The notes beneath the pieces were generated by a model. That model did no database searches. It was not told the origin of the DNA and worked only from the letters and a program-made list of their open reading frames with translations. Below are positions 50,563 to 57,770 of a stretch of 64,000 bases of DNA, piece after piece. A program made the translations under genes and the position numbers. The stretch comes from Pseudomonas denitrificans (nom. rej.) (lineage in GTDB: Bacteria > Pseudomonadota > Gammaproteobacteria > Pseudomonadales > Pseudomonadaceae): positions 1,798,001 to 1,862,000 of the forward strand of contig NZ_CP043626.1 in NCBI RefSeq assembly GCF_008807415.1, in the 5' to 3' direction. Each line of letters opens with the position of its first letter. Within the stretch, counting starts at the first letter, position 1.

Positions 50563-50582
50563 GGGTATCGGCGGACTTTCCC

Positions 50583-50690
50583 TATAGGAGCTGGCCATGC
50601 CCGCGAACCGCGGACGGAGTCCGCGCAGCTCCGGTGTGCGTCGGCGCCGTAAGCCCTGCTTACGGGTCGCGAGCATGGCTCGCTCCTACA
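50583..50690. repeat. REP-type composite palindrome
   Basis: TATAGGAGCTGGCCATGCCC ... GAGCATGGCTCGCTCCTACA, with two nested hairpins (CGCGGAC/GTCCGCG and CCGTAAG/CTTACGG). Longer version of the common class. Confidence 0.8.
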
Positions 50691-50712
50691 CCGGCCAGCG
50701 GCGGACTCTCAC

Positions 50713-50756
50713 TGTAGGAGCGGGCCATGCCCGCGAGCGCGGACAAAGTCCGCGTG
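50713..50756. repeat. REP-type element, TGTAGGAGCGGG class
   Basis: TAGGAGCGGGCCATGCCCGC then GAGCGCGGACAAAGTCCGCG; second tandem copy in this gap. Confidence 0.8.
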
Positions 50757-50781
50757 TGCCCGCGTGCATCGGCATCATGGG

Positions 50782-51711
50782 TCAGGGCTTCCAGCGCGCC
50801 GCGCTGATATCCACGGCGCGCGGCAGGATACGCTCGGCGAGGAACAGGTCGGCGGTGCGCTGTTGCGCGGCAATATCCGCATCACCCACGGGTTGAATGG
50901 GCGAGGGCGGACGGTGCCTGAAGGTTTCCTCTATCACCGCCGGCGCCAGCCCGGTCACGCACGCCATGATCGCCACGCTGCCGGCTTCGTCGCTGCGGGT
51001 CAGGGCTTCGGCCTCGTTGAGGGCTTCCAGTACCTGGTGAATGAACGCCGGGTTGGCGCCCGCGTATTCCCGGCTGGACAGGTAGAACGGCCCGCTCAGG
51101 CCAACCGCCGAACCGTCCGCCAGCAAGCGCGCATGGCCGTCCAGCAGCAGCGCCGAATACCACGGGTCCCAGATCGCCCAGGCATCCACCCGGCCGCTCT
51201 CGAACGCGGCGCGGGCATCGGCCGGCGTCAGGTACAGCGGCTGGATGTCTTTCAGGCTCAGGCCTTCCTTCTGCAGCAGGCGCAGCAGCAGGTTGTGCGA
51301 GCTGGAGCCTTTCTGGAATGCCACGCGCTTGCCCTTCAGCTCGGCGACGCTGTGGATCGGGCTGTCCCTGGGCACCACCACGGTTTCAGCCTGCGGCTTG
51401 GGCGGCTCGACGCCGACGTAGAGCAGGTCGGCGCCGGCGGCCTGGGCGAAGATCGGCGGGATGTCGCCAGTGGAGCCGATATCGAGGCTGCCGACGTTCA
51501 GCGCTTCGAGCATCTGCGGCCCGGCGGGGAATTCGATCCACTGGACCTGAGTCTGCGCGAAGCGCTTCTCCAGCAGGCCGTGTTCCTTCGCCAGCACCAG
51601 GCTGACCGAGGCCTTCTGGTAGCCGATGCGCAGCTGCGCCGGGTCCTGCGCCTGGGCGGTGCCAGCCACGAGCAGCAACAATCCGGCGAGCAGTCGATTG
51701 AGCAGTCTCAC
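50782..51711 (-). CDS. ABC transporter substrate-binding protein, aliphatic sulfonate (SsuA-like)
   Basis: A 309-residue periplasmic protein of the SsuA/TauA/NrtA fold with a signal peptide (about 1-23, LLLLVAGTAQAQ). Family marks: LRIGYQKASVSLVLAKEHGLLEKRF, VQWIEFPAGPQMLEALNVGSLDIGSTGDIPPIFAQAAGADLLYVG, KGKRVAFQKGSSSHNLLLRLLQKEGLSLKDI and VDAWAIWDPWYSALLL. Start is GTG at 51711, only four bases after the aldo/keto reductase stop, so they are one transcript. The matching permease and ATPase genes are not in the window; REP elements follow directly. Confidence 0.88.
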   Translation of the reverse strand: MRLLNRLLAGLLLLVAGTAQAQDPAQLRIGYQKASVSLVLAKEHGLLEKRFAQTQVQWIEFPAGPQMLEALNVGSLDIGSTGDIPPIFAQAAGADLLYVGVEPPKPQAETVVVPRDSPIHSVAELKGKRVAFQKGSSSHNLLLRLLQKEGLSLKDIQPLYLTPADARAAFESGRVDAWAIWDPWYSALLLDGHARLLADGSAVGLSGPFYLSSREYAGANPAFIHQVLEALNEAEALTRSDEAGSVAIMACVTGLAPAVIEETFRHRPPSPIQPVGDADIAAQQRTADLFLAERILPRAVDISAARWKP

Positions 51712-51715
51712 AGCC

Positions 51716-52759
51716 TTATTCCTTCCAGTCGTGGGAGGGCTTTTCCCAGAGGTTGATCCCGCCTTCCACGGCGTGATGATCGATCTCCGCGAACTCCTCG
51801 CGACTGAACACGAGGTTATCCAACGCGGCGACGTTCTCGACGATCTGCTCCGGTCGGCTCGCACCAATCAGCGCAGAGGTTACGCGGGCGTCGCGCAGCA
51901 CCCACGCCAGCGCCAGTTGCGCCAGGCTCTGGCCGCGGCGCCGGGCGATTTCGTTCAGCGCGCGGGCGCGGCGCAGGTTGTCCTCGGACAGGTGCTCAGG
52001 GCGCAGCGAGGCGCCGCCCGGCTGGTTGACCCGTGCATCGCCCGGCACGCCGTTCAGGTAGCGGTCGGTGAGTAGCCCCTGGGCCAGCGGAGTGAAGGCG
52101 ATGACGCCCGCGCCCAGCTCGTCGGTGGTGGCCAGCAGGTCTTTCTCCACCCAGCGGTTGAACAGGTTGTAGGCCGGCTGGTGGATCAGCAGCGGTACTT
52201 TCCATTCCTTCAGCAGCGCGGCGAGTTCGGCGGTCTTGCCGGCGGAATAGGACGAGATGCCCACGTACAGCGCCTTGCCTTGCTGCACGGCAGTGGCCAG
52301 GGCTCCGGCGGTTTCCTCCAGCGGCGTGTCCGGGTCGAAGCGGTGCGAGTAGAAGATGTCCACGTAGTCCACACCCAGGCGCTTGAGGCTCTGGTCGAGG
52401 CTGGAGAGCAGGTACTTGCGCGAGCTGCCGCCCTGGCCGTAGGGGCCCGGCCACATGTCCCAGCCGGCCTTGGTGGAGATCACCAGTTCGTCGCGGTAGG
52501 CGGCGAAGTCTTCGCGCAACAGGCGGCCGAAGTTGATCTCGGCGCTGCCGTAGGGCGGGCCGTAGTTGTTGGCCAGGTCGAAGTGGTTGATGCCCAGGTC
52601 GAAGGCGGTGCGCAGCAGGGCGCGCTGGCGGTCCAGCGGCACGCTGTCGCCGAAGTTGTGCCACAGGCCCAGGGAAAGAGCGGGCAGCACCAGGCCGCTG
52701 CGGCCGACACGGCGGTAAGGGACGCGCTGGTAGCGGTCGGGGTGGGCGAGATAGGTCAT
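51716..52759 (-). CDS. aldo/keto reductase, YghZ-like
   Basis: A 347-residue NADPH-dependent aldo/keto reductase of the YghZ (L-glyceraldehyde-3-phosphate reductase) group. The catalytic tetrad residues appear in HFDLANNYGPPYGSAE (D and Y), VISTKAGW (K) and DIFYSHRFD (H). LGRSGLxxxxL-type start (YRRVGRSGLVLPALSLGLWHNFG) fits. Homologues reduce aldehydes such as methylglyoxal. Here, between a flavin monooxygenase and a sulfonate binding protein, it may handle an aldehyde released by desulfonation; this is inference. Confidence 0.88.
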   Translation of the reverse strand: MTYLAHPDRYQRVPYRRVGRSGLVLPALSLGLWHNFGDSVPLDRQRALLRTAFDLGINHFDLANNYGPPYGSAEINFGRLLREDFAAYRDELVISTKAGWDMWPGPYGQGGSSRKYLLSSLDQSLKRLGVDYVDIFYSHRFDPDTPLEETAGALATAVQQGKALYVGISSYSAGKTAELAALLKEWKVPLLIHQPAYNLFNRWVEKDLLATTDELGAGVIAFTPLAQGLLTDRYLNGVPGDARVNQPGGASLRPEHLSEDNLRRARALNEIARRRGQSLAQLALAWVLRDARVTSALIGASRPEQIVENVAALDNLVFSREEFAEIDHHAVEGGINLWEKPSHDWKE

Positions 52760-52775
52760 GGGGACTCCTGTGGGA

Positions 52776-52800
52776 ACGGGCCGCAGCCAGTGCGGCCCGT
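52776..52800. other. perfect hairpin between monooxygenase and reductase genes
   Basis: ACGGGCCGCA-gccag-TGCGGCCCGT, a 10-bp perfect stem in the 47-base gap. No T run; may tune mRNA stability inside the operon rather than terminate. Confidence 0.5.
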
Positions 52801-52806
52801 GGATCG

Positions 52807-54129
52807 TCAGAGGGTGTAGCGGTTGGCCGGGCGCTTGAGCCCGAGATGCTCGCGCAGGGTGCTGCCGCTGTAATCGCGGCGGAACAGCTCGCGTCGTTGC
52901 AGTTCCGGGACGACATGGTTGGCCACGTCTTCCAGCCCGCCGGGCAGGTGCGGCACCAGGACGTTGAAGCCGTCGGCGGCGCCACCTTCGAACCAGGCCT
53001 GGAGCTCGTCGGCGATCTGCGCCGGCGTGCCGATCAGGCTGTAGTGCCCGCGTCCGCCGGCGATGCGCCGGCCCAGCTGGGCAAGGGTGAGGTTCTCGCG
53101 CCCGGCCAGTTCGGTGAGCAGCAGCTGGCGGCTGCGCTGGCCGCTGTCGGTGAGCGGTAGCTCAGGCAGCGGGCCGTCCAGCGGGTAGGCGGAGAGGTCG
53201 AAGTTGCCAAGCATGCGCGACAGCAGCGCGACGCCGACCTGCGGCTCCACCAGCTGCTGGAATGCCTCGAACTTTTCCTGCGCCTCGGCCTGGCTCTGGC
53301 CGACCACCACGAACACGCCGGGCATGATGCGCAGGTCATCCGCGCTACGACCGAAACGTGGCAGGCGACCCTTGAGGTCGTTGTAGAAATCGCGGGCGGC
53401 GGCCAGTGAGGTCTGCGCGGTGAACACCACTTCGGCGGTCTGCGCGGCCAGCTCGCGTCCGGTCTCGGAACTGCCGGCCTGGACGATCACCGGGCGGCCC
53501 TGGGGCGAGCGCGCGACGTTCAGCGGTCCCTGTACGCGGAAGTGTTCGCCCTCGTGGTTCAGCACATGCAGCTTGGCCGGGTCGTAGTACTGGCCGCTGG
53601 TCTTGTCGCGGGTGAAAGCGTCGTCTTCCCAGCTGTCCCACAGGCCGGTGACCACTTCGTGGAATTCCCGCGCGCGGGCATAGCGCTCGGCGTGGCCGAA
53701 GTGTTCCTGGCGGTTGAAGTTCAGCGCCTCGGCGGCCGCGTCGGAGGTCACCAGGTTCCAGCCGGCGCGGCCTTCGGAGAGATGGTCGAGCGAGGCGAAC
53801 TTGCGCGCCACGTGGTACGGCTCGTTGTAGCTGGTGGTCACGGTGCCCACCAGGCCGATGCGCTCGGTCACCGCCGCCAGCGCCGAGAGCAGGGTCAGCG
53901 GCTCGAAGTGATCGGAGCGCGCCATGCGGCTGGCGATGTCGCCAGTGGGCGCGGCCACGCTGTCGGCAACGAAGAGCGCGTCGAATTTCGCCGCTTCGGC
54001 CACCTGCGCCAGGCGCTTGTAGAGGCGGAAGTCGAGGCCGCCGTTGGCCGGCACGTCCGGGTGGCGCCACGCCGAGACGTGGTGACCGGTGGCCATGAGA
54101 AAGGCGCCAAGTGAAAGGGTGCGTGTCAT
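52807..54129 (-). CDS. LLM-class flavin-dependent monooxygenase (NtaA/SnaA/DszA type)
   Basis: A 440-residue bacterial-luciferase-type oxygenase using FMNH2 from a separate reductase. Family marks: LGAFLMATGHHVSAWRHPDV, FDALFVADSVA, TERIGLVGTVTTSYNEPYHVARKFASLDHLSEGRAGWNLVTSDAAAEALNF, and RPVIVQAGSSETGRELAAQTAEVVFTAQ. This NtaA/DszA/SfnG branch cleaves C-N or C-S bonds, or desulfonates. With an SsuA-like protein downstream, an organosulfur substrate is plausible. A flavin reductase partner is not adjacent. Confidence 0.9.
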   Translation of the reverse strand: MTRTLSLGAFLMATGHHVSAWRHPDVPANGGLDFRLYKRLAQVAEAAKFDALFVADSVAAPTGDIASRMARSDHFEPLTLLSALAAVTERIGLVGTVTTSYNEPYHVARKFASLDHLSEGRAGWNLVTSDAAAEALNFNRQEHFGHAERYARAREFHEVVTGLWDSWEDDAFTRDKTSGQYYDPAKLHVLNHEGEHFRVQGPLNVARSPQGRPVIVQAGSSETGRELAAQTAEVVFTAQTSLAAARDFYNDLKGRLPRFGRSADDLRIMPGVFVVVGQSQAEAQEKFEAFQQLVEPQVGVALLSRMLGNFDLSAYPLDGPLPELPLTDSGQRSRQLLLTELAGRENLTLAQLGRRIAGGRGHYSLIGTPAQIADELQAWFEGGAADGFNVLVPHLPGGLEDVANHVVPELQRRELFRRDYSGSTLREHLGLKRPANRYTL

Positions 54130-54189
54130 GTGAGGTTTTCCTGTGTGTCCGTCGGGAGGGACGCAAGGCGGCGTGGGTGTTGTTGTCGA

Positions 54190-54213
54190 CGGCGCCGGGG
54201 CGAGCCGGCGCCG
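54190..54213. other. perfect hairpin between receptor and monooxygenase genes
   Basis: CGGCGCCGG-ggcgag-CCGGCGCCG, a 9-bp stem in the 108-base gap; possible attenuator giving more receptor than enzyme. No T tail. Confidence 0.45.
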
Positions 54214-54237
54214 CGAATTACTCAGTCTGGGGAGCGA

Positions 54238-56502
54238 TCAGAAATCCTTGCGCAACTCGACGCCGAAGTAGCGGCCGTCGTCCCGCGGCACCATGCGGTA
54301 GACGTAGCTGCCGCCCGTGGCCAGCAGGGGCGAATAGGACTTGTCGGTGAGGTTCTTGCCCAGCAGGGCGACGCGCCAGCCGTCGTTGTAGTCGGCCAGG
54401 GCGATGCTGGCGCCCCACAGGCCGTAGGCGCCCTGGATGGTGTCGGGGTTCTGGCTGAGGTCGTACTGCACCTTGTCCTGCCAGCTGTAGTCCGTGCCGA
54501 GCTCCACATCCAGGCCGTTGTCCAGCGGGATGCTGTAGTCGGCGCGCACGTAGCTCTTCCAGTCCGGCGAGAAGGGCAGCGGCTTGCCGTCGACGTTGCA
54601 GGCAGCGGCCGCACCGGCCGGGCAGGCGAAGCTGTCGATGCGCGCCTTGGTGTAGGCAACGGCGCCGGAGACCTTCAGCTGGCGGGTCGCCTGGTAGCTG
54701 AAGTCCAGCTCGGCGCCCTCGGTCTTCACCTTGCCGGCGTTGATCAGGCGGGTCACCACCTGGCCGGCGACGGTGTCGTAGAAGTTCGCCTGGTAGTTGT
54801 CGTAAACGGTGTGGAACACCGCGAGGTTGGCGGTCAGGCGGTTGTCCAGCGCAGTGGCCTTCAGGCCCGCCTCCCAGGAGTTGGAGGTCTCCGGCTTGAG
54901 CGCCTCGGTGTCGCGCGGCTGCATGTTGAAGAACACGTTGTAGGCCGGGCCCTTGTAGCCACGCGAGTAGGTGATGTAGCTGGTCAACTGCTCGCTGAGG
55001 TCATACTGCAGGCCCAGGCGGCCGGACCAGCCGTCTTCATCGGTGGAGCCGGAGCTGGAGGTGGACGGCTGGATGCCGGTCACCGCCGTGGCCGAGGTGG
55101 AGCGGCGGCGATGGTCGTATTCCAGGTCGTCGTGGGTGTAGCGCAGGCCGGCGATGCCGCGGAAGTCATCGGTGAAGTTCAGCGTGCTCTCGCCGAACAC
55201 TGCATAGGTGTCGCTGCGCGTGCTGTAGTCGGCCACGCCAGTGTTCTGCGCGGTGGTAGAGGTCACCACGCGGCGGTAGGTCTCGTCGTCAACGGCGTGC
55301 ATGTAGTAGAGGCCGCCGACGTATTCGAGGAACTCACCCTTGGGAGAGGCGAGGCGCAGTTCCTGGGAATACTGGTCGTAGTTCAGCTCACCCTTGTCGT
55401 GGGAGCTGGGGATGCTCGCGGTGACCTGGGAAAGACGATCGCCATCCTGCCACTGAGTGTTGTCCCAGCCGCGCCAGGCGCTGATGGAGGTCAGGGTGTA
55501 GTCGCCCAGGTTCCAGTCCAGTTGCGCCGACAGGCCCTTGTTGGTGTCGTCGACGTGGGTGCGGTAGTCGCTGTTGATCTTGCGGTTGTCGCTGTCCGCC
55601 GTCACCGGGCGCAGGGCACTGGCGAATGCCGCGCTCGAAGTGCTGGTGATGACGCCGCTGGGGCTGTCATCGTTGCCCTTCATGTAGTCGGCGATCAGGG
55701 TGACCTTGAGGTCGTCGTTCGGGGTGATCTCGAACTTCGTGCGCGCGCCGGCGCGGTTGTAGCCGTTCACCTCGTGGCCGTTGTAGACGTTGTCCACGTT
55801 GCCGTCGTAGCTGCCCAGCAGGGTGGTGACGCTGGCCTTGAGCTTGCCGGGGATCAGCGTGCCGCCGATGCCGAAGCGGGTGCGGTTCTCGTTGCCGCCG
55901 CCAAAATGCGAGTAGTCGATGTAGCCGGTGGTTTCGTCCGGCACCTCGCGGGTGACCACGTTGAGCACGCCGGCCGACGCGTTCTTGCCGAACAGCGTGC
56001 CCTGTGGGCCGCGCAGCACTTCGATGCGCTCGACGTCGAGCAGGTCCAGGGTCGCCTGGCCGGGACGGCCGAGCACCACGCCGTCGATCACCGTCGACAC
56101 GCTCGGCTCGACGCCGGGGGAGGTGGAGATGGTGCCCACGCCGCGGACGAACAGCGAGGTGTCCTTGTTCGAGGCGCCGGTGCGGAAGTTCAGGGTCGGT
56201 ACCTGCTGGACGATGCTCGACACGTTGTTGCGGTTGTCGCGTTCCAGTTGCTCACCATCGATCACCGAGACGGCCACCGGCACCTTCTGCAGCGACTCTT
56301 CGCGGCGGGTGGCGGTGACAGTCACGGCTTTCAATGTCGGCGCCGCATCGGCGGACTGGTTGTCGCCATGGCTGGTTTCGGCTGCCTGCACGCTGCAGGC
56401 CAGAGCGCCGATCACGCTGGCGATGCCCAGCGCCAGTGCGCTGCGCCGGCCAGTGAATTGTGGACGGCCGAGCGTCCCCCGTTGTTGCGATTGCATAGCC
56501 AC
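54238..56502 (-). CDS. TonB-dependent outer-membrane receptor
   Basis: A 754-residue receptor: signal peptide (about 1-41, ending CSVQAAE), plug with VTATRREESLQKVPVAVSVIDGEQLERD and VERIEVLRGPQGTLFGKNASAGVLNVVT, and a barrel ending FGVELRKDF. The plug start and the GPQGTLFGKNASAG box are typical of the large receptor group for non-siderophore or unusual substrates (vitamin, sugar, aryl or sulfur compounds). There is no STN domain. It heads a four-gene minus-strand run (receptor, LLM monooxygenase, aldo/keto reductase, binding protein) behind a LacI-type operator, so regulation seems substrate-, not iron-based. Confidence 0.92.
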   Translation of the reverse strand: MAMQSQQRGTLGRPQFTGRRSALALGIASVIGALACSVQAAETSHGDNQSADAAPTLKAVTVTATRREESLQKVPVAVSVIDGEQLERDNRNNVSSIVQQVPTLNFRTGASNKDTSLFVRGVGTISTSPGVEPSVSTVIDGVVLGRPGQATLDLLDVERIEVLRGPQGTLFGKNASAGVLNVVTREVPDETTGYIDYSHFGGGNENRTRFGIGGTLIPGKLKASVTTLLGSYDGNVDNVYNGHEVNGYNRAGARTKFEITPNDDLKVTLIADYMKGNDDSPSGVITSTSSAAFASALRPVTADSDNRKINSDYRTHVDDTNKGLSAQLDWNLGDYTLTSISAWRGWDNTQWQDGDRLSQVTASIPSSHDKGELNYDQYSQELRLASPKGEFLEYVGGLYYMHAVDDETYRRVVTSTTAQNTGVADYSTRSDTYAVFGESTLNFTDDFRGIAGLRYTHDDLEYDHRRRSTSATAVTGIQPSTSSSGSTDEDGWSGRLGLQYDLSEQLTSYITYSRGYKGPAYNVFFNMQPRDTEALKPETSNSWEAGLKATALDNRLTANLAVFHTVYDNYQANFYDTVAGQVVTRLINAGKVKTEGAELDFSYQATRQLKVSGAVAYTKARIDSFACPAGAAAACNVDGKPLPFSPDWKSYVRADYSIPLDNGLDVELGTDYSWQDKVQYDLSQNPDTIQGAYGLWGASIALADYNDGWRVALLGKNLTDKSYSPLLATGGSYVYRMVPRDDGRYFGVELRKDF

Positions 56503-56615
56503 TCCTTCGTGCCCTGGTCCGCCCTCGGTTCTCTTTGCCGGGGCGCCTTTTTCTGCGGGACTGTCATGAGCGCTCGCTCGTGCGAGTGGCTGGGATCGTT
56601 GCGGACAGTTTGTGT

Positions 56616-56629
56616 TGTTAGCGCTAACA
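56616..56629. promoter_or_regulatory. LacI-family operator (perfect 14-bp palindrome)
   Basis: TGTTAGCGCTAACA is a perfect palindrome with the central CG pair usual for LacI/GalR operators. It lies between the divergent receptor operon (start 56502) and the LacI-type gene (start 56730), and is the probable site for that repressor on both promoters. Confidence 0.8.
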
Positions 56630-56729
56630 TCGGCGAGTATCCTGAATCGCCAGATAGATCGTCAAATAATTAAAAATTACGTTTATATTCCTGAAATATA
56701 AGTTCAGGACCGATAGCAGGAGTGCCGGT

Positions 56730-57770
56730 TTGGCCAGTCAGACACCCCGAAAGCGCCGCGGCGCAGGACGCGTAACGCTGACCGCGGTCGCCGAACGCGC
56801 GGGCGTTTCCGCCATCAGCGTGTCGCGCTATTTCAACCAGCCGGCGCAGCTGTCGGATGACCTGCGCGAGCGGATCGGCGCGGCGGTGGAGGAGTTGGGC
56901 TACGTGCCCAACCAGGTGGCTGGCGGGCTGGCTTCGGCGCGGGGCAGGGTAGTGGGGATGGTGGTGCCGAACATTTCCGGGCCGATCTTCGCCGACACCA
57001 TCCAGGCTTTCAGCGACACCCTGGCCGCCCACGGCTACCAGTTGCTGCTGGCCTCCAGCTACTTCTCCGAGGACAAGGAAGAAAGCGCCGTGCGCGCCTT
57101 CCTCGGCTGGAACCCGGCGGCGCTGGTGCTCACCAGCCACTTCCACAGCGCCGCCACCGAAAAGCTGATCGCGGGCGCGGACATGCCGGTGGTGGAGGTC
57201 TGGGACTACCAGCCCGAGCGCGCGCCGATCCAGGTCGGGTTTTCTCATTATCAGGTCGGGGTGGATGCGGTGCGCCATCTGCACGGCAAGGGTTATCGAC
57301 GCATTACCTTCGTGCAGAACAGCGCGCCCGGTGACTTCAGTGCCCTGGACCGTCGCGACGGCTACGCCGATACCCTGCGCGAACTGGGCGGCGAGCCGTG
57401 GATGTTCGTGCCCACCGAAAGCGCGCCCTTCGAAGCCGGGCGGCAGGCCATGGAAGCGCTGATGGCGCGGGGGGCGCAGCGGCCGGAGGCGATCATCTTC
57501 GCCAACGACAACCTCGCCGCCGGCGGCCTGCTGGCCGGTCAGCGCGCCGGCTTGAAGATTCCCGAGGATTGCGCGGTGCTGGGTTTTGGCGACTACCCCT
57601 TCGCGCCGATGCTGCTGCCTAGCCTGTCCACCATCAAACCGCCGGCCCGCGAGATCGGCGAGATCGCCGCGTTGCGGGTGTTGCAGTCGATTGGCGTGGT
57701 GCCGCTGGAGGGAGCGGTGGAGCGGCTGAACCTGCTCAGTTGCCGGGTACTGGAACGCGAAAGCGCCTGA
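56730..57770 (+). CDS. LacI-family transcriptional regulator
   Basis: A 346-residue LacI/GalR regulator. HTH and hinge: RVTLTAVAERAGVSAISVSRYFNQPAQLSDDLRERIGAAVEELGYVPNQVAGGLASARGRVVGMVVPN (about residues 13-80); the periplasmic-binding-like domain follows, ending with DCAVLGFGDYPFAPMLLPSLSTIKPPAREIGEIAALRVL. A TTG at 56730 is taken as start since AGGAG ends seven bases before it. Most like GntR of gluconate systems in fold, but the neighbours suggest another ligand. It is divergent from the receptor operon with a perfect operator between. Confidence 0.92.
   Translation: MASQTPRKRRGAGRVTLTAVAERAGVSAISVSRYFNQPAQLSDDLRERIGAAVEELGYVPNQVAGGLASARGRVVGMVVPNISGPIFADTIQAFSDTLAAHGYQLLLASSYFSEDKEESAVRAFLGWNPAALVLTSHFHSAATEKLIAGADMPVVEVWDYQPERAPIQVGFSHYQVGVDAVRHLHGKGYRRITFVQNSAPGDFSALDRRDGYADTLRELGGEPWMFVPTESAPFEAGRQAMEALMARGAQRPEAIIFANDNLAAGGLLAGQRAGLKIPEDCAVLGFGDYPFAPMLLPSLSTIKPPAREIGEIAALRVLQSIGVVPLEGAVERLNLLSCRVLERESA

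Follow-up and report, generated by a model that had tools for sequence, protein, structure and literature searches.

A conserved, LacI-controlled Pseudomonas operon headed by a TonB-dependent receptor, with a probable role in sulfonate scavenging

Within the window, the 64,000-nucleotide stretch at contig positions 1,798,001-1,862,000 of the 6.88 Mb Pseudomonas denitrificans (nom. rej.) genome that was analysed here, four co-directional genes and a divergent LacI-type gene form a unit that is real, conserved and regulator-bound. Its function is probably (we would put it at about 0.6) the scavenging of sulfonates, or organosulfur compounds, as a variant of the ssu2 system of Xanthomonas citri, of the Ssu type. 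Transcription on the minus strand passes in turn through genes for a TonB-dependent outer-membrane receptor (TBDR; 54238-56502; PF00593, PF07715), a flavin mononucleotide (FMN)-dependent luciferase-like monooxygenase of the NtaA/DmoA family (LLM; 52807-54129; TIGR03860), an aldo-keto reductase resembling YghZ/AKR14 (AKR; 51716-52759; PRK09912) and an SsuA-like periplasmic sulfonate-binding protein (50782-51711; PRK11553/TIGR01728). These open reading frames (ORFs) are present where an initial annotation, made from the sequence alone, had placed a receptor, an LLM oxygenase, an AKR and an SsuA-like protein, and the four bases that it had given between the last two genes are indeed there, the TBDR-LLM and LLM-AKR gaps being 108 and 47 bases. 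The start of the SsuA-like gene was read by eye as a GTG; a longer ORF with a TTG start, to 51867, would overlap the AKR gene. Judged from profile and domain matches, the family assignments of all five genes can be taken as firm. A simple scan of the minus strand of the operon found no terminator-like site.

The divergent LacI-type gene and perfect operator of the initial annotation were both borne out. The repressor gene is at 56730-57770 on the plus strand (PF00356/PF13377) and the operator, TGTTAGCGCTAACA, at 56616-56629 with 0 mismatches is the sole site with at most one mismatch in the genome. The operon has a sigma-70-like promoter, TTGACG-18-GATACT (56636-56665, minus strand), with 9/12 consensus matches, from a scan that found 1 where shuffles led to an expectation of 0.5. 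The operator starts 6 bases past the second promoter hexamer, over what would be the transcription start, and so a repressor bound there would cover that start. Promoter and operator are both conserved in an alignment of 17 upstream regions. When 31 upstream regions were compared, 30 with LacI (the window, 19 named loci and 10 congeners) and the one from Xanthomonas arboricola (L040), the operator was present with 0-2 mismatches in all 30 LacI-bearing loci, and a loose promoter pattern, written after seeing the alignment, fitted 29 of the 30, the exception being L023. A second site with at most two mismatches is present in L037, L039, L041, L042 and L043, and the control region of the first of these, from Pseudomonas sp. 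Gutcm_11s, has two perfect operators.

Among 25 genomes of the genus, exactly one operator site is present in each of the 11 with the LacI gene and none in the 14 that lack it, a pairing with a chance of 1/C(25,11) = 2.2e-7; this, like all the association counts given here, ignores kinship. In a family sample of 298 genomes all 52 with LacI have at least one site (at most one mismatch), located beside LacI in 48 of them; for G072, G133, G145 and G200 the sites are counted without listed positions. Outside the genus the pattern is by itself a weak indicator, since a site also occurs in 85 of the 246 family genomes without LacI; it was rejected as a marker there, the backward control likewise matching in many genomes. 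The protein is GntR-like and was rejected as a P. aeruginosa-type GntR, scoring 259 bits against the NF052440 cut-off of 400. LacI regulators mostly sense sugars, and LacI control here suggests a substrate-specific inducer over general sulfur starvation.

Synteny, together with operator conservation, backs the proposal that this is one LacI-controlled unit. A GTDB genome scan with the LLM as query, of which the best 80 loci were kept, gave 21 loci in which the LLM is at least 76% identical: 18 from Pseudomonas and the others from Azomonas, a metagenome-assembled genome labelled Paucimonas and X. arboricola. With matches covering less than 50% of the query left out of the synteny table (less than 60% for the neighbour-gene table), the operon is whole or partial in these 21, with LLM in 21, TBDR in 20, LacI in 19, AKR in 18 and SsuA in 17, and either AKR or SsuA in every one. 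L035 is uninformative about TBDR and LacI, which it lacks, because its contig ends 223 bases upstream of the LLM gene. In the other 59 loci (LLM at most 65%) there is no TBDR match and a single LacI match, of 38%, in L062. In the family sample LacI is present in 52 genomes and TBDR in 51, and each of these 51 TBDR genes shares its contig with a LacI gene to which it lies head to head; G033 is without a TBDR match because its LacI gene is 1.4 kb from a contig start. The check that had been suggested for the initial annotation, of whether the genes occur separately in relatives, thus came out clearly for LacI, TBDR and LLM, which stay together, and less so for the remaining pair, with AKR or SsuA absent from some loci. 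G017, of the same species as the window strain, has neither LacI nor TBDR, which makes the operon look accessory even at the species level.

Some relatives show further variation. Upstream of the operon of Pseudomonas sp. Gutcm_11s there is a second TBDR-LLM pair (L037:1-2955; 30% and 60% identity). In L032 (11324-12661) and L038 (11324-12652) an alpha/beta hydrolase gene, with PETase/PAF-AH-like Pfam matches in L032 and a copy 85% identical in L038, is inserted between LLM and AKR; its product may free an ester-bound substrate. The TBDR copy at G076:C1:2175512-2177425 has one in-frame TAG and is perhaps a decaying gene.

The sulfonate theme already seen by the initial annotation gains strength from the SsuA-like protein, which is orthologous to a proven sulfonate binder. 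It scores 501 bits against the 299-bit cut-off of PRK11553, when computed on the longer ORF, and 294 against 164 bits for TIGR01728, and its N-terminus looks signal-like by eye. It is 64.1% identical to X. citri SsuA (PDB 3e4r) over 290 residues, and keeps all five of the sulfonate-pocket residues Gln36, Gly68, Gly86, Ser141 and Trp185. According to the available text on the X. citri protein, it binds MES, MOPS, HEPES and CHES, and neither sulfate, sulfate esters nor several other sulfur compounds; its pocket has at least 12 hydrophobic residues, and an ssuA mutant does not grow with HEPES, MOPS or MES as sulfur source (PMC3839906). The sulfonated sugar or aryl compound that had been suggested as a possible substrate of the window operon was, in light of those ligands, an overstatement.

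As had been pointed out, the ABC permease and ATPase are missing: there is no SsuC match anywhere in the window, and SsuC and SsuB are encoded elsewhere in the genome. At about 3.32-3.33 Mb, with its canonical ssu operon about 1.47 Mb from the window operon, is a run of genes for a peroxiredoxin, a second binder of the SsuA family, the permease and ATPase that go with it (these two assigned by similarity only), and then SsuE, SsuA, SsuD, SsuC and SsuB, each of these five being above its NCBIfam cut-off. The canonical SsuA is 48.5% identical to that of the window, other matches in the genome being at most 37% and several of them partial. Since the canonical SsuC shares 74% and the canonical SsuB 64.5% identity with its counterpart in the Xanthomonas operon, compared with 46% and 43% for the second set, it is natural to suppose that the window SsuA shares the SsuCB of the canonical operon. 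The earlier suggestion that the binding protein borrows another transporter is therefore likely to be right, keeping in mind both the full ssu operon at a distance and the inclusion of SsuC and SsuB within the X. arboricola operon. SsuE could also supply reduced FMN (FMNH2) to the LLM.

That X. arboricola locus has the contiguous order TBDR-LLM-AKR-SsuA-SsuC-SsuB, with its SsuC above the equivalog cut-off, its SsuB just under (369 against 395 bits) and its SsuA 93.4% identical to X. citri SsuA over 290 residues. A TBDR 97% identical to the one at this locus is in a 431-sequence cluster named X. arboricola (from a search that scored the 7998 best candidates), and a 454-member cluster named X. 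axonopodis includes an LLM with 94% identity to that of L040 (8000 best candidates scored); another TBDR search likewise scored only the 8000 candidates sharing most words. The X. citri cluster is known here from publications and from 3e4r. Xac3198, 3199 and 3200 are described, in the parts of the papers at hand, as SsuA, an oxidoreductase and a nitrilotriacetate monooxygenase of an operon that includes SsuC and SsuB (PMC4501297, PMC3839906). This ssu2 operon, printed as ssuEDACB or ssuDEACB, is like the window operon in its published LLM-oxidoreductase-SsuA order, in its NtaA-type monooxygenase and in its orthologous SsuA (64% to the window, 93% to X. arboricola); the oxidoreductase is taken as a probable AKR because of the X. 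arboricola gene order. It differs in continuing with SsuC and SsuB, which the X. arboricola operon has and the window operon does not, and the main text of both papers is without mention of TonB. In the available text of another report, XAC3198 is listed together with a nitrilotriacetate monooxygenase and with four TonB receptors as common to citrus-canker strains (PMC2883993).

Some relatives also have sulfur genes of other kinds close to the operon. The tauABCD genes are beside it in 5 of the 21 loci, convergent in L023, L024, L026 and L033 and in the same direction in L032, whose tau region also includes genes for an SsuD-like LLM and another SsuA-like protein; any tau, ssuC or ssuD relative is nearby in 9 of the 21, with the SsuC of L040 itself included and no background count from random loci. 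Beyond LacI, at a distance of 3.1-10.4 kb, there is an SsuD relative in 6 of the 8 genus genomes covered by the search, namely that of the window (7.0 kb), G006, G007, G013, G016 and G019, and none was found in G009 or G010; G011, G020 and G023 were outside the search. The window strain's copy, just past the window end (L116:743-1942), is an SsuD equivalog with 613 bits against a cut-off of 518, and is adjoined by a divergent serine acetyltransferase gene (L116:2228-3214). The latter adjoins the SsuD relative in 4 of the 6 genomes and stands alone in G010; in G006 and G016 it is not judgeable, the sequence stretch ending there.

From the directly observed gene order, conservation, operator-regulator pairing, SsuA orthology with its pocket residues, and presence of ssuEADCB, a route can be proposed. 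The TBDR would bring a scarce sulfonate through the outer membrane, and the SsuA-like protein would bind it in the periplasm for delivery to the importer, SsuC/SsuB, that the canonical ssu operon encodes. Using FMNH2 provided by SsuE or some other reductase, the LLM would then cleave the C-S bond to give sulfite and an aldehyde, which the AKR would reduce to an alcohol. LacI on its single operator at the transcription start would act as repressor, and be released by substrate or product. The pairing of LLM with AKR has the logic of the sulfo-ASMO pathway, in which, by the available part of a review, oxygenolytic sulfite release leaves an aldehyde that an AKR then reduces with NAD(P)H (PMC9594981).

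All of the best 25 NCBIfam rows for the TBDR are under their cut-offs, so no substrate class can be given, and its solved relatives, receptors for siderophores, heme, pesticin/colicin and metallophores at 27-88 bits, are uninformative on substrate. The AKR is above the YghZ/AKR14 membership threshold (PRK09912, 551 against 448 bits) and has PF00248; PDB 9nz6, named just 'Oxidoreductase', matches it with 666 bits, which means that the structure of a very close relative has been solved, and 3n6q matches with 514 bits. In sulfo-ASMO the AKR acts on 6-dehydroglucose; the match of the window AKR to 7bby/7bbz, which we take to be SmoB, is 45 bits. The LLM scores 588 bits for the NtaA/DmoA family (TIGR03860, cut-off 280). 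Its best solved relatives are 7e36_B and YtnJ (382-383 bits), then nitrilotriacetate monooxygenase (371 bits) and dibenzothiophene desulfurization enzyme A (333 bits), with 170 bits for 7e36_A (named SsuD/MER-like) and 24-39 bits for structures named alkanesulfonate monooxygenase or methanesulfonate sulfonatase. There are further LLM genes in the genome, at G000:C1:1070409-1077334 and 2520143-2521312, with 36-58% identity and near ABC transporter ATPase matches.

Several points weigh against sulfonate scavenging as the role. The LLM is of the NtaA/DmoA class and not of SsuD, with 54 bits against the 518-bit cut-off of the SsuD equivalog TIGR03565, and sulfonate activity of this LLM is not reported in the literature searched. 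The X. citri authors themselves, in the available text, question SsuD2 (PMC4501297), and because X. citri also has an ssu1 set its mutant informs on uptake and not on cleavage. The X. arboricola operon differs from that of the window in that its 18.7-kb locus is without a match to this LacI and no operator precedes the TBDR gene, the sole site with at most two mismatches being 8 kb past it. AKR is missing from 3 and SsuA from 4 of the 21 loci, and the disregard of kinship in the association counts has also to be put on this side. No LacI-controlled sulfonate system was found in the literature searched; LacI goes unmentioned in two sulfoquinovose reviews, and in as much as could be consulted of the chromate proteome and PAO1 sulfur-starvation papers the operon is not named. 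A dimethyl sulfide (DMS) paper has no mention of TonB, aldo, NtaA or LacI.

With the LLM of the NtaA class and YtnJ and the dibenzothiophene enzyme among its best relatives, a thioether or sulfone has to be taken seriously as an alternative to a sulfonate, if one that we consider clearly the less probable. The LLM would open an S-alkylcysteine-like compound or aryl sulfide, the AKR would reduce the released aldehyde, and SsuA would carry a sulfur-bearing acid. YtnJ and DszA/BdsA presumably act on thioethers or sulfones, the closest solved relatives (7e36_B, YtnJ and the nitrilotriacetate and dibenzothiophene enzymes) are far above the alkanesulfonate monooxygenases, and one source gives the name N-acetyl-S-(2-succino)cysteine monooxygenase to a protein with 76% identity to the LLM of L040. 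The binding protein argues the other way, as its five sulfonate-pocket residues are kept and its X. citri ortholog is reported, in the text available, not to bind sulfate, sulfate esters or several other sulfur compounds; so does the adjacency of tau and ssu genes in part of the loci.

A sulfosugar like sulfoquinovose is an improbable substrate, with LLM and AKR then being an independently evolved counterpart of the SquD/SquF pair, LacI sensing a sugar and the TBDR importing a sulfoglycoside. It would suit the general preference of LacI regulators for sugars, and an LLM with an AKR is also what sulfo-ASMO uses (PMC9594981, as far as available), but neither enzyme is close to the structures of the sulfoquinovose pathway, and the X. 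citri SsuA pocket, with its reported 12 or more hydrophobic residues, speaks against it. There is also a lead, weak and not amounting to support, in a glycoside hydrolase of family GH31. The one GH31 match in the genome (G000:C1:1087844-1090120; L145:6345-8624), a candidate sulfoquinovosidase, is in the YihQ clade and has by eye a membrane-anchor-like N-terminus. Such a gene is in 15 of the 298 family genomes, 13 of them among the 52 with LacI (hypergeometric 2.8e-9); within the genus it is in 8 of 11 LacI-positive genomes and 0 of 14 others (1.5e-4), and outside it 5 of 7 carriers have LacI (p 0.001), kinship being ignored throughout. Against this, 39 of the 52 LacI-positive genomes are without such a match, and the gene is unlinked to the operon, far from which it is flanked by the same genes in each of 6 loci inspected, with gltA (named by eye) nearby in 5. 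Further, Gln is found in all nine copies read, out of 13 full-length copies of its type, at YihQ position 301, where YihQ has an Arg that is presumably a contact residue; the sole family genome whose GH31 hit has Lys262, Glu288 and Arg301, G294, is LacI-negative.

The speculative extreme of this, and about as doubtful, is that the operon, TonB-fed and LacI-induced, serves the use of a sulfonated sugar or a glycosylated sulfonate. A plant sulfoglycoside would enter through the receptor, the membrane-anchored, periplasmic GH31 with its remodelled Gln301 pocket would trim it where present, SsuA and SsuCB would import the product, and the NtaA-class LLM and AKR14-type reductase would form an oxygenolytic desulfonation pair with an origin separate from that of SquD/SquF. 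If true, LacI would read the sugar, and so the cell would treat this source of sulfur as it does one of carbon. Least probable of all is a LacI-induced carbon pathway without sulfur (such as one oxidizing a ketone, lactone or glycoside from plants) with a recruited SsuA-like binder, since, for all that LacI control, the EDTA and nitrilotriacetate monooxygenases among solved LLM relatives and the lack of SsuA in 4 of 21 loci might suit it, SsuA is 64% identical to a proven sulfonate binder, X. arboricola has SsuC and SsuB inside its operon, and tau and ssu genes are neighbours.

Returning to sulfonate scavenging, the operon can be set beside systems already known. It shares with canonical ssuEADCB (E. 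coli, P. putida) an SsuA and an LLM-type flavin monooxygenase for C-S cleavage, and that operon probably lends it permease and ATPase; assignment as a canonical ssu operon was nevertheless rejected, the LLM failing the SsuD cut-off and the canonical SsuD belonging to another LLM class. To our knowledge canonical ssu has neither a TonB receptor nor an AKR. The E. coli genes, by the available text, are under CysB/Cbl control (PMC4501297), unlike the LacI control here. The Pseudomonas sulfate-ester cluster atsACBR-sftR-atsK-sftP likewise combines, in the part of its description at hand, a TonB receptor with sulfur scavenging and an SsuA-like binder (PMC3596284), and differs in having an arylsulfatase and AtsK in place of LLM and AKR and a LysR-type regulator, SftR. 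Membership in this SftR/SftP-AtsRBC type failed, with the regulator here of the LacI family and no LysR-type regulator, sulfatase or AtsK among the five genes. Sulfo-ASMO (SquD/SquF, for which SmoC/SmoB are, we take it, other names) is alike in that an LLM desulfonates and an AKR then reduces the aldehyde. From the parts of the literature available it is different in that SquD is a close SsuD homolog, which the window LLM is not, and the reviews consulted are silent there on LacI (two reviews) and TonB (one review). A sulfo-ASMO assignment was rejected, as LLM and AKR fall into different subfamilies and the sole GH31 match carries Gln in place of Arg301.

The initial annotation had called the system undescribed. 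With X. citri SsuA, oxidoreductase and monooxygenase already published the core is in print, as are SsuA structures and the mutant phenotype; what does appear new is the TBDR as a member and the LacI/operator control in Pseudomonas, neither of which was found in the open literature, subscription journals being mostly uncovered. Sulfonate use is usually described, in the E. coli work as far as available, as an inner-membrane matter controlled by CysB/Cbl. On the preferred reading, many Pseudomonas, among them P. syringae, would add to this a conserved receptor in the outer membrane and a LacI with one operator. The receptor gene also heads the operon in X. arboricola, and the papers on the SsuA mutant of its close relative X. 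citri are silent on TonB. A single-operator LacI is an easy handle, since identifying its effector would lead straight to the natural substrate.

Two features at the edges of the transcription unit complete the picture. The operon leader has an inverted repeat, CTCGC-N4-GCGA (56573-56586, minus strand), in 29 of the 30 LacI-type loci, with a loop that varies; it is absent from L030 and L040, and is a candidate that may be either a second regulator site or an RNA hairpin. No Rfam family in the leader region reached its gathering score, and the repeat was rejected as a regulon signal, with GCNACTCGCNNNNGCGA occurring 5 times in the genome and its backward control 6 times. At the other end, the gene beyond SsuA is a DUF899 gene on the opposite strand, and between the two, at window positions 50580-50770, are two similar repeats, TAGGAGCKGGCCATGCCCGCG...GCGGAC, that by eye are REP-like.

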